Both the position numbers and the translations under genes were made by a program. A model generated the notes under the pieces. It did not search any database. It had not been told where the DNA came from and was given only the letters and a program-made list of their open reading frames with translations. From an uncultured Pseudomonadota bacterium (GTDB lineage Bacteria; Pseudomonadota; Gammaproteobacteria; CAJXQU01), in the NCBI GenBank assembly GCA_913058255.1, contig CAJXQU010000016.1, positions 1 to 49,690 of the forward strand: a DNA stretch of 49,690 nucleotides, in the 5' to 3' direction. Shown piece by piece: positions 37,988 through 41,604 of this stretch (its first letter is position 1; each line of letters begins with the position of its first letter).

Positions 37988-38374
37988 ATGATCAGATTTA
38001 AACTAAAATATGCCTTGACCGCCACGGCTCTTTTCCTACTCCTCGCATTCATTGCTATCTATGTACACGATCAATTCGTCCGGCCTTTCTTGGGGGATGT
38101 TTTAGTCGTTGTCTTTCTTTATTATTTTCTGCAATCTTGGCTTGATATCTCGCCCATAAAATTAACCCTAGGCGTTCTGTTATTCGCTTATAGTATTGAA
38201 ATTTCTCAGTACTTTAATATCGTTGAAATACTCGGACTACAAGATATAAACGTTGCTGTCATTATCATTGGATCAACATTCGATGTGATGGATTTAGTCG
38301 CATACACATTGGGAGCACTGTTCATTATTTTTGCCCTAGTCCCTAAACAAACCAACATTTCTTCTATGCATTAA
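37988..38374 (+). CDS. DUF2809 family membrane protein
   Basis: The 128-residue protein has four membrane spans. The sequence GDVLVVVFLYYFLQSW, the central SIEISQYF and FDVMDLVAYTLGALF are the conserved DUF2809 features. Function is unknown. It is on the plus strand 61 bases before the small Cys protein of the copper block, so read-through is possible. Confidence 0.88.
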   Translation: MIRFKLKYALTATALFLLLAFIAIYVHDQFVRPFLGDVLVVVFLYYFLQSWLDISPIKLTLGVLLFAYSIEISQYFNIVEILGLQDINVAVIIIGSTFDVMDLVAYTLGALFIIFALVPKQTNISSMH

Positions 38375-38435: not shown

Positions 38436-38834
38436 ATGCAGTATAATCATCATCGCAAAATAATCGTTGGAAAGGGACTGATCGCCACCTTATTATTTAC
38501 TTGGCTTTCGATCTACTGTCAGCATTGTTTAGCATTCGCCGAACAAACACAGCCTGAAATATCTCATGCGCATTGCGTTGATCAGGCTCAGCAGCAGACA
38601 CCTAAATATATAGATACCGAATCACTCTGTATCAGTGACTGCTCCAATTATCCTGCCATTCAGGACACCCATAAGCTTCAAAAAAATGAGCTTAAAACCT
38701 GTGATCAATATACCCTAGTCGCAATTAACGATTTTACCTATCGTCAGAAGAACACCATAACTTCCTTCCGAGAATTCCCACCCGATCAATCATTATTCCT
38801 TCCTGTTAAGCGGTACACCATCCAGCTGAAATAA
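38436..38834 (+). CDS. CutF-like small exported protein, putative nascent-chain copper sensor
   Basis: The 132-residue protein has a basic start and a signal sequence (about 8-35, cleaved at AFA-E). The mature part has HAHC (44-47), the CXXXC motif C65-ISD-C69 and a further Cys89, which could bind copper, and a proline-containing C-terminus with FPPDQSLFLPVKR (114-126). In Rhodobacter capsulatus the exported protein CutF has a Cys motif and a stalling-like C-terminus and controls translation of the downstream multicopper oxidase gene through an mRNA stem-loop. Here a stem that buries the next ribosome site starts 3 bases after this stop. No clear ribosome site precedes ATG 38436. The family link is inference from architecture. 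Confidence 0.65.
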   Translation: MQYNHHRKIIVGKGLIATLLFTWLSIYCQHCLAFAEQTQPEISHAHCVDQAQQQTPKYIDTESLCISDCSNYPAIQDTHKLQKNELKTCDQYTLVAINDFTYRQKNTITSFREFPPDQSLFLPVKRYTIQLK

Positions 38835-38837
38835 ACG

Positions 38838-38874
38838 CTTCCTCCTCTCTTTTATTCATTTTTTTAGGAGGAAG
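38838..38874 (+). promoter_or_regulatory. Stem-loop sequestering the tolC ribosome binding site
   Basis: CTTCCTCCT (38838-38846) is perfectly complementary to AGGAGGAAG (38866-38874), which contains the ribosome site AGGAGG of the next gene (ATG 38877). The loop is 19 bases, mostly T. A ribosome at the stop codon of the upstream gene (38832-38834) would cover the left arm and open the stem. This predicts translational coupling between the CutF-like gene and tolC. Confidence 0.8.
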
Positions 38875-38876
38875 TT

Positions 38877-40310
38877 ATGTCCAAAATACACTCAGTACTA
38901 TTACTCGCAACATCTGTCAGCTTTATTACTGGCTGTGCTCAGATCCAACCAAAGGCTGGGTTTGAGCAAGTCGAACAAATGATTTCAAATCGTCTCAATC
39001 AACAGATCCGCTGGGTTCAAAACAGCGAAGAAGATTTAGCGGTTCAAGAACAAATTAAACAATTATTAAGCAAGGATTTATCAGCAGATTCAGCTGTTCA
39101 GATCGCCCTACTTAACAATAAGAATCTACAGGCACGTTATGAAAGTTTGGGGATCGCTCAAACTGAAGTTGTGCGTGCCGGCTTATTAAAGAATCCGATA
39201 TTTTCATTTTCAGCTAAATTCCCAAATGAACCACCATCATCTGCCAGTTTGGAATTTGATTTGATCGGAGATTTTCTCAATCTACTCATGCTTCCTGCAC
39301 GTAAAAAGTTTGCCGCGCAGCAGTTTGAACAAGTACAGTTAGAGCTTGCCGATCAGGTATTAAGATTCGCTACGAAGGTAAAAAAACATTACTTCCGTCT
39401 GCAATTTTCACAGCAATCTGTCGCTGTTCTCCATGAGATCGTCAGTGTTTATGAAGTCTCTTTTGACTTAGCAAAAGAATTCTATACCGCAGGGAATATC
39501 GATGAACTGCAACTGCTACGGGAACAGGCCTTATACGAAACCACACGATTACAATTAGCCCAGAATACGTTGACGGTTTCTGCAGAAAAAGAAACTCTCG
39601 CTCAATTATTAGGACTTAACAATACTCAACTTTGGAGTATTCCCTCATCATTAAAAGCCGTTCCGAGTGTCCAGCCTGATCTCAACAATCTAGCTCAACT
39701 CGCCATCGAGCAACGGCTTGATCTAGCCGCAGCAGGAAAGCAAGTTGAAACGTTTGCATCGAAACTTGGAACCACCAGAAACTGGCGCTTGCTGGCTGAT
39801 GCGGAGTTCGGTATCACTGGCGAGCGTGAACGTGATGGAGCTGGCTCTATTGGCCCAGCGTTGTCTTTAGCGATTCCGATCTTTGATCAGGGCCAAACCG
39901 AGATCGCTGAGGCTAATGCTTATTTACGAAAAAGTGAACACACGCTGTCGGCTCTCGTCCTGGAGGTTCAATCCGAAATCCGTTTAGCTCAACAAAAAAT
40001 GTTAGCTTCTCAGATGATGGCTCAGCGTTATCAGAGCACTATTATCCCTTTGCAAGAGAAGATCGTCCGGCTCAGCCTACAACAATATAACTACATGCTG
40101 CTAGGCGCCTTTGACCTTTTAACCAGCCGTCAAAACGAAATGAGAGTCTATCAAGATTATATCCATGCCGTGCGTGATTACTGGATCGCTAGAGCTGATC
40201 TGGAGCAGGCTGTCGGTGGCAACCTACGTTTCGAAGGAACCGGTATGCCCCAAAAACTACCCGAAAAAATATCAAACGACCAACCTATGCAACAACATGG
40301 AGGGCACTAA
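38877..40310 (+). CDS. TolC family outer membrane efflux lipoprotein
   Basis: The 477-residue protein has a lipoprotein signal ending SFITGC (Cys20) and the repeated OEP helices of the TolC/CusC family (about 70-250 and 265-455); QIALLNNKNLQARYESLGIAQTEV and IPIFDQGQTEIAEANAYL are typical. It would form the outer membrane duct of an efflux or copper export system. Its ribosome site is locked in a hairpin. The multicopper oxidase gene follows after 2 bases. No inner membrane pump or adaptor is encoded beside it. Confidence 0.9.
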   Translation: MSKIHSVLLLATSVSFITGCAQIQPKAGFEQVEQMISNRLNQQIRWVQNSEEDLAVQEQIKQLLSKDLSADSAVQIALLNNKNLQARYESLGIAQTEVVRAGLLKNPIFSFSAKFPNEPPSSASLEFDLIGDFLNLLMLPARKKFAAQQFEQVQLELADQVLRFATKVKKHYFRLQFSQQSVAVLHEIVSVYEVSFDLAKEFYTAGNIDELQLLREQALYETTRLQLAQNTLTVSAEKETLAQLLGLNNTQLWSIPSSLKAVPSVQPDLNNLAQLAIEQRLDLAAAGKQVETFASKLGTTRNWRLLADAEFGITGERERDGAGSIGPALSLAIPIFDQGQTEIAEANAYLRKSEHTLSALVLEVQSEIRLAQQKMLASQMMAQRYQSTIIPLQEKIVRLSLQQYNYMLLGAFDLLTSRQNEMRVYQDYIHAVRDYWIARADLEQAVGGNLRFEGTGMPQKLPEKISNDQPMQQHGGH

Positions 40311-40312
40311 TC

Positions 40313-41551
40313 ATGTTAAACCGACGCCACTTTTTATCCACGACTTTGCTAGCTGGATTGACAACCCTTTTCACCAATACAAAAGCTGCTGCCGATCAAT
40401 CTAAGAAAATATTCTCCAGCAACTCACCCCCTAAACCCGTTATTGTTTCAAATGGTCGTAAGCTTCCTTGGGAAATAGTCAATGGTGCTAAACAGTTTCA
40501 TCTGATCGCTGAAGAGTGTGAGCAAGAGTTTGCTCCGGGTATGAAGGTTAAATGTTGGGGCTACAACGGCAGCACCCCCGGACCAATCATCGAAGCAACC
40601 GAGGGTGATCGCGTCAGAATACTCCTTACTAATAATCTCAAAGAGCACACAACTGTTCACTGGCATGGCATTTTTTTACCCAATGGAATGGATGGTGTCG
40701 GCGGCTTAACCCAACCATCGATCAAGCCCGGCGAAACCTATGCCTATGAATTCACTTTACGTCAACATGGAACCTTTATGTACCATCCTCATGCAGACGA
40801 GATGGTGCAAATGGCTGTCGGTATGATGGGCATGTTTATTATTCATCCCAAAGAGCAGGTCACTAACGTTGATCGCGATTTTGCCATCATGCTACATGAG
40901 TGGGCGATCCATCCTGGCACCTATCGACCCGATCCCGCCGTGATGCTCGACTTTAATATCTTCACCATGAACGGCAAGGTGTTTCCCGCCATTGAACCCA
41001 TGGTGGTTAAAACCGGCGAGCGCGTTCGGTTACGGCTAGGAAACTTGAGCATGGATCAGCACCCTATGCATCTACACGGTTTTGCTTTTAAAGTCACAGC
41101 CACGGATGGAGGACAAATCCCCGCAGCTGGCCAATGGCCGCAAACTACCGTCCCCGTACCTGTCGGTAGCACTCGTGATGTTGAATTTATTGCCGATGAA
41201 CCTGGTGATTGGGTGTTTCATTGCCACAAGTCTCATCACACTATGAATGCAATGGGGCATGATATTCCCAACACACTCGGCGTTGATCAGTCCGAAGTCA
41301 GTCAACGCATCCAATCATTATTACCCGGCTACATGGCAATGGGAGAAGACGGCATGGCCGAACACGCGATGCATGGCAAACATATGACAGGCCCAGAAAA
41401 TACTCTGCCGATGATGATGGGTGATGGTCCTTTTGGGCCGATCGAAATGGGTGGCATGTTTACCGTGATCAAGGTTCGTGATCAGCTCAGTAATTATGAT
41501 GATCCTGGCTGGTACGAACATCCGAAGGGAACTCTACCGAAAAAATGGTAG
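40313..41551 (+). CDS. Tat-exported multicopper oxidase
   Basis: The 412-residue protein has a twin-arginine signal (NRRHFLST) and all four copper blocks: HWHG (116-119), HPHAD (158-162), HPMHLHGF (250-257) and HCHKSHHTM (303-311). It is thus a complete laccase-type oxidase of CopA/CutO kind that oxidises Cu(I) or phenolic substrates in the periplasm. The C-terminal part (about 330-395) is rich in Met and His (AMGEDGMAEHAMHGKHM), fitting copper binding. It is translated after the TolC gene at 2-base distance and probably shares the control by the upstream stem-loop. Confidence 0.93.
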   Translation: MLNRRHFLSTTLLAGLTTLFTNTKAAADQSKKIFSSNSPPKPVIVSNGRKLPWEIVNGAKQFHLIAEECEQEFAPGMKVKCWGYNGSTPGPIIEATEGDRVRILLTNNLKEHTTVHWHGIFLPNGMDGVGGLTQPSIKPGETYAYEFTLRQHGTFMYHPHADEMVQMAVGMMGMFIIHPKEQVTNVDRDFAIMLHEWAIHPGTYRPDPAVMLDFNIFTMNGKVFPAIEPMVVKTGERVRLRLGNLSMDQHPMHLHGFAFKVTATDGGQIPAAGQWPQTTVPVPVGSTRDVEFIADEPGDWVFHCHKSHHTMNAMGHDIPNTLGVDQSEVSQRIQSLLPGYMAMGEDGMAEHAMHGKHMTGPENTLPMMMGDGPFGPIEMGGMFTVIKVRDQLSNYDDPGWYEHPKGTLPKKW

Positions 41552-41574: not shown

Positions 41575-41604
41575 GTTTATGCCTAGCTCTCAATGGGCAT
41601 AAAC
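41575..41604 (+). terminator. Hairpin after the multicopper oxidase gene
   Basis: GTTTATGCC (41575-41583) pairs with GGCATAAAC (41596-41604) over 9 bp with a 12-base loop, 23 bases past the stop. There is no T-run, so it may be a weak terminator or a 3'-protecting hairpin. Confidence 0.5.

Follow-up and report, generated by a model that had tools for sequence, protein, structure and literature searches.

Gene organisation of the locus

The window, a stretch of 49,690 nucleotides from an uncultured gammaproteobacterium, carries a small gene for a cysteine-containing protein with a predicted export signal, followed by a TolC-family gene and a multicopper oxidase gene (Table 1). A previous reading of the sequence alone (the sequence-only reading) had described a small exported protein with CxxxC at residues 65-69 and an oxidase gene 2 nt after tolC, and all of these coordinates are confirmed. 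The export signal is recognised by eye: the N-terminus is basic, there is a hydrophobic stretch, and residues 33-36 or so resemble a signal-peptidase site (A-F-A/E). The mature part has cysteines at positions 47, 65, 69 and 89, the first of which (38574-38576) aligns with the first cysteine of the CVD...CxxxC pattern of an alphaproteobacterial clade described below, and C65xxxC69 aligns with the CxxxC of the leader L059. The same reading placed FPPDQ at the C-terminus: the motif is present, at residues 114-118 of 132, but 16 residues lie C-terminal of its PP and it is not the extreme end of the protein. The stop codon occupies 38832-38834 and is followed by ACG and then by the first arm of a hairpin. 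Pfam and NCBIfam searches with the leader protein returned no match.

A gene for a DUF2809 (PF10990) membrane protein lies on the same strand at 37988-38374, 61 nt upstream of the leader gene, and no clear promoter was seen between the two. Promoter and terminator scans gave fewer matches than in shuffled sequences, and a scan for a T-run terminator after the oxidase gene found none. Elsewhere in the genome there is a distant multicopper-oxidase-like match of 31% identity (L033, G000:C4:146888-147256). Two genomes of the same genus both lack the leader and this tolC.

Table 1. Features of the leader-tolC-oxidase locus, in window coordinates.
Feature	Position	Strand	Basis
Leader (uORF) gene, 132 aa, exported Cys protein, probable divergent CutF-like member	38436..38834	+	ORF and profile of relatives
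Sec signal peptide (predicted), residues 1-35	38436..38540	+	By eye: basic start, hydrophobic core, AFA site
C65xxxC69, putative metal site	38628..38642	+	Alignments
P115-P116 of FPPDQ	38778..38783	+	PP invariant in leader alignment, distance to end variable
C-terminal tail DQSLFLPVKRYTIQLK-stop, degenerate SxLYLTTQRxRx-stop with three extra residues	38784..38834	+	Alignment with relatives
Stem 5' arm (anti-Shine-Dalgarno), CTTCCTCCT, 3 nt after leader stop	38838..38846	+	Hairpin search, folding, covariation
Stem 3' arm, AGGAGGAAG, holding tolC Shine-Dalgarno AGGAGG (38866-38871), 5 nt before ATG	38866..38874	+	Hairpin search, folding
TolC-family outer-membrane efflux lipoprotein (OEP, PF02321, 1e-26; lipobox-like ITGC20)	38877..40310	+	Pfam
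Multicopper oxidase (Cu-oxidase_3, 1e-43), N-terminal RR (Tat-like) signal, 2 nt after tolC	40313..41551	+	Pfam/NCBIfam
Inverted repeat GTTTATGCC/GGCATAAAC after oxidase gene, possible operon end	41575..41604	+	Hairpin search

A hairpin over the tolC Shine-Dalgarno sequence

The two arms pair perfectly over 9 bp and enclose a 19-nt loop. Only two non-palindromic perfect 9-bp hairpins occur in the surrounding 8 kb, the second being located after the oxidase gene. The 48-nt element folds at -14.0 kcal/mol, compared with -4.8 +/- 1.9 kcal/mol for 200 dinucleotide shuffles, none of which folds as well (z = -4.8), and in the junction ensemble AGGAGG is paired to 98%. The perfect stem that had been reported 3 nt after the stop, hiding the Shine-Dalgarno (SD) sequence of tolC, is thus confirmed in position and is far more stable than its shuffles. 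An Rfam search returned nothing beyond one chance match below the cut-off.

Remote relatives of the leader

A direct homologue search with the window protein, covering 185 relatives, species-representative contigs and plasmids, gave no match; since no close homologue occurs in the collections searched, the evidence for conservation comes via remote relatives. Pairs of TolC and oxidase genes are present in many other genomes, very often with a small exported cysteine protein ending in RPPxx upstream. The TolC sequences, once aligned, proved too varied to allow a pattern scan. The entry point was the L059 leader, on an alphaproteobacterial contig (2633-3019), which stands beside a similar tolC-oxidase pair and resembles the window leader in its CVD...CxxxC pattern and in its kind of tail (DPPGSRLYLTTQRLRI-stop vs FPPDQSLFLPVKRYTIQLK-stop). 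Searches from it led to an alphaproteobacterial clade (L134-L141, the alpha clade) and to all the other relatives. These are a second clade, whose leaders carry RAPP or RGPP and end in the LTTQRFRV manner (L144, L153-L158), a clade in the taxonomic class of the window itself (L147/L160, L161, L165, L166), a single further leader (L022) and a clade from another class of the same phylum, found by the leader protein alone (L168-L181). Weak matches devoid of the tail were dropped (L142, L143, L145, L148-L152), and L162, which has the tail and no SD stem at the expected place, was excluded from the pairing test described below. A profile of the relatives, built without the window, recovers the window ORF among 5474 ORFs, with E 5.9e-4 from 19 leaders and 7.5e-5 from 31.

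The next gene encodes an outer-membrane efflux protein by Pfam in L139, L140, L144, L153, L155, L158 and L022, and resembles one by sequence in L154, L156 and the L168-L181 clade. It is not an efflux gene in L157, L160, L161, L165 and L166. The L160/L161/L165/L166 clade has one mature cysteine, so that the metal and the ligand set may differ there; these leaders precede short or cytochrome c genes (cytochrome c in L165), near a MerR-type regulator gene, and in L160 the next start opens a frame of only eight codons, perhaps a decayed gene or another leader.

Covariation of the stem with the Shine-Dalgarno sequence

For 20 junctions with a related leader, pairing was computed between the 25 nt that follow the leader stop and the 25 nt that precede the next start, own or swapped. 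Own pairs reach a mean of -13.9 kcal/mol and swapped pairs -8.2 kcal/mol, and none of 200,000 permutations attains the observed sum (p ~5e-6, the floor of the test). The floor is also reached without the window, and in a 13-sequence subset in which near-duplicates were thinned. The control region 26-50 nt after the stop gives no difference between own and swapped pairs, and unrelated junctions, a small set of 22, give a weak and non-significant one (-10.2 vs -9.4, p 0.12). Among the related junctions L166 fails, and pairing is weak in L155, L158 and L160.

The stems differ in sequence from one relative to another, with CCTTGTTTTAACA/TGTTAAAACAAGG (13 bp) in L157, ATCTGTCTTCT/AGAAGACAGAT (11 bp) in L156 and CTCTCTGC/GCAGAGAG in L139. 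In the alpha-clade alignment five pairs carry changes in both partners, and the proportion of paired cells falls from 86% to 59% or less when the partner is shifted by 1-3 columns. The L168-L181 clade, recovered with the leader protein alone, serves as an independent test: all 13 of its junctions are able to form a stem that begins 1-6 nt past the leader stop. Here cognate pairs reach -16.1 and swapped pairs -14.3 (p 0.002), the strength of the latter being explained by the close-knit nature of this clade. At the level of sequence, an SD-burying stem directly after the leader gene is therefore conserved in the relatives, with covariation. The search for homologues and for compensatory changes in the intergenic stem, which had been put forward as a check, has given related leaders, pairing with their own SD over the 20 junctions taken as a set, and double-sided changes.

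Further pairing is seen within some of these junctions. In the alpha clade (L135-L141; columns 17-35 of alignment A5) the SD stem directly encloses another covarying hairpin, CACGG...CGTG. The junctions of L168-L178, L180 and L181 likewise appear to keep, in addition to the SD stem, a loop hairpin of the ATACCGCGATTCG...CGGGGTGCAT type, and they look like a compact conserved RNA element.

The tail of the leader and the reach of the ribosome

Two kinds of tail can be distinguished. In most RPP tails the prolines are no more than about six codons from the stop, and TQR tails extend for 13-24 residues after PP. A sliding 12-nt scan finds the SD complement at +3..+15 from the first stop base in the TQR-tail class (-4.7 kcal/mol, p 2e-4, the floor) and at -6..+6 in 24 RPP-tail junctions (-1.9 kcal/mol, p 2e-4), so that the position of the arm shifts with the type of tail; no competing SD partner was seen inside the leader coding region in the TQR class. 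The tail common to the relatives, PP...LYLTTQRxRx-stop, abuts the stop codon. T-6, R-4 and R-2 are identical in 31 of 31 relatives, figures which are inflated by the use of tail patterns to select part of the set, and PP is invariant in a 16-row leader alignment. The window tail keeps PP, the SLFL...KR part and I, lacks T and the second R (T-6 = V, R-2 = T) and has QLK added. The TQR-tail class is delimited here by a profile match, a tail of the form LxxTxRxRx ending at the stop and an SD stem that begins 1-6 nt behind it. With a profile match to the class (E 7.5e-5), an SD stem and a degenerate tail, the window leader is best regarded as a divergent member whose exact pause site is uncertain. 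If the pause were set by the RxRI element in the window, it would fall three codons short of the stop, which counts against the tail model.

Counted from the first base of its P-site codon, a ribosome is taken to extend 15-16 nt to its leading edge. When P115 occupies the P site, that edge would be at about 38793, some 44 nt short of the arm; when the stop codon is in the A site, it would be at about 38844, with the greater part of the 5' arm covered. The opening pause is hence expected at the very end of the leader. FPPDQ, which had been proposed as the opening stall, is poorly suited to this role, and the stop-abutting tail conserved in the relatives is a better fit to the position of the hairpin. 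In L144 and L153-L158, RAPP or RGPP, a known arrest motif, lies 20-24 residues before a TQRFR-type end, which suggests, as far as sequence can tell, two pause sites in one leader.

The arm is also well placed for plain translational coupling, in which ribosomes terminating on the upstream gene would open the stem with neither metal sensing nor regulated arrest: a ribosome terminating there could reach the beginning of the stem, and the computed results include no sign of metal dependence. We nonetheless consider this explanation unlikely. The leader is an exported cysteine protein before copper genes, and its relatives keep the PP, the cysteines and a stop-abutting tail; coupling alone would not conserve a protein tail.

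A probable CutF-like translational switch

We propose, with a probability of roughly 0.7, that the 132-residue gene encodes a CutF-like regulatory leader peptide that acts in cis on the tolC-multicopper oxidase operon, and that ribosome dwell near its stop opens the stem. Very probably, the hairpin junction works as a genuine translation switch and represents a CutF variant with an unusual tail. A CutF-like translational switch is the best reading because the stem is conserved and covaries and because the profile of the relatives recovers the window ORF. It is well supported by the anatomy of the locus; copper sensing we infer from the analogy with CutF. The CutF logic proposed in the sequence-only reading can thus be retained, except for FPPDQ as the opener and for the novelty of a tolC-first arrangement.

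By analogy with CutF, the leader would be exported co-translationally, and copper, probably Cu+, bound to its cysteines would alter how long the ribosome dwells there before leaving the leader, perhaps, as in CutF, by prolonging its stay. A ribosome dwelling at the final one or two codons, the stop codon being in its A site, would cover about 7-8 nt of the 5' arm. This would free the SD and turn on tolC, and the oxidase would follow through the 2-nt junction. It can be hypothesised that the dwell is set by the C-terminal tail at the stop (LYLTTQRxRx-stop in relatives, LFLPVKRYTIQLK-stop here) and not by FPPDQ alone. The conserved PP upstream may represent a second pause, perhaps one released by metal as in CruR (PMC9426467, PMC12992588), or may be part of the contact of the nascent chain in the tunnel.

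Comparison with known leader systems

In the arrest peptides SecM, VemP, MifM and TnaC (discussed in PMC9973294), a ribosome stalled on a leader likewise alters the structure or accessibility of the downstream mRNA; they sense export or tryptophan rather than metal, and their sequences are unrelated.

The closest parallel is CutF of Rhodobacter capsulatus (cutFOG; PMC9973294, PMC8456105), which is also a small exported CxxxC protein with conserved prolines near the C-terminus, in an operon with a multicopper oxidase and with the SD of the next gene buried in a stem-loop. With 132 residues and a 42-nt gap, the window leader lies within the size and spacing rules of the CutF-like set (<150 aa, same-strand next gene within 1000 nt). 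For CutF, the Cys motif, C-terminus and signal peptide are needed only when the stem is present, and arrest by its C-terminus was not demonstrated in isolation (PMC9973294). CutF as described there ends in PEPEGPPPRL, with prolines two residues from the end, whereas the PP of the window is 16 residues from the end; CutF also controls the oxidase directly, while the window has tolC first and a tail resembling the LYLTTQRxRx-stop class. A TolC-family gene in first place had been thought to be a new arrangement. This view does not hold, since the CutF survey gives outer-membrane efflux proteins (PF02321) as the commonest next-door neighbours (PMC9973294) and the present searches turned up many leader-tolC-oxidase loci.

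CruR of Bordetella pertussis (DUF2946, PF11162; PMC9426467) is similarly a cysteine-containing nascent leader before a copper operon, with PP near its end. It differs in having CxxC, a RAPP arrest relieved by copper, Rho-dependent termination, a 162-nt gap and repression by copper (PMC9426467). A mechanism of this kind, in which copper relieves arrest at PP and affects the operon through Rho-dependent termination or, with the reverse sign, lets ribosomes reach the stop and open the stem, gains some credit from the invariance of PP and from the several leaders in which RAPP or RGPP, the motif that stalls CruR in vitro (PMC12992588), is followed by 20-24 residues. We judge it improbable, about a one-in-ten chance, for the conservation of the SD stem suggests that initiation is what is controlled, cruR has a much longer gap (PMC9426467) than the 42 nt seen here, and the window leader, with CxxxC and REFPP in place of CxxC and RAPP, has FPP and gives no Pfam match to DUF2946 (PF11162) at E 10. 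That the small protein instead works in trans, as a copper chaperone or sensor in the periplasm, with the hairpin as an mRNA-stability or processing element, is very improbable even though CutF was first taken for a chaperone (PMC8456105), given that the stem includes the SD and tracks it by covariation and that CutF acts in cis only (PMC9973294).

Leader genes before copper or metal efflux genes also include the CopL family (NCBIfam NF033807) and CzcI (NF045614). The RPP-class leader L062 passes the CopL cut-off, whereas the window protein and the TQR-tail leaders tested match neither family; for the window leader, NF033807 in particular gave no match.

A candidate class of metal-sensing leaders

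The element that may be new is the class of TQR-tail leaders, which partly escapes the published PP filter, though one of the 29 clusters of PMC9973294 may contain this tail. The filter, as described there, keeps proteins with PP within 15 residues of the end (PMC9973294), so that the window leader and the L168-L181 clade would be filtered out. A text search of the literature for the tail strings found no relevant paper.

At somewhat less than even odds, we tentatively suggest that these leaders constitute a separate and widespread metal-sensing class, mostly before outer-membrane efflux genes and present in at least three proteobacterial groups. The pause would be set by LYLTTQRxRx-stop at the stop codon and not by a C-terminal proline motif, and the PP 13-24 residues upstream would be a second element. 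The published PP-within-15 filter would miss much of this class, and the window leader would be a divergent member. The tail may represent a new arrest motif, and the post-transcriptional control of the metal-efflux operons concerned may have escaped notice. Experiments on CutF-like control have so far come from one species, and the covariation reported here provides independent comparative evidence that SD-burying stems tied to the stop codon are a general part of such control.

In the RPP-tail leaders L007, L052, L062 (CopL-like), L076 and L128, the stop-codon region itself (TCCTGA, TTCCTAA) pairs with the next SD, the stop codon being located within or beside the anti-SD arm.
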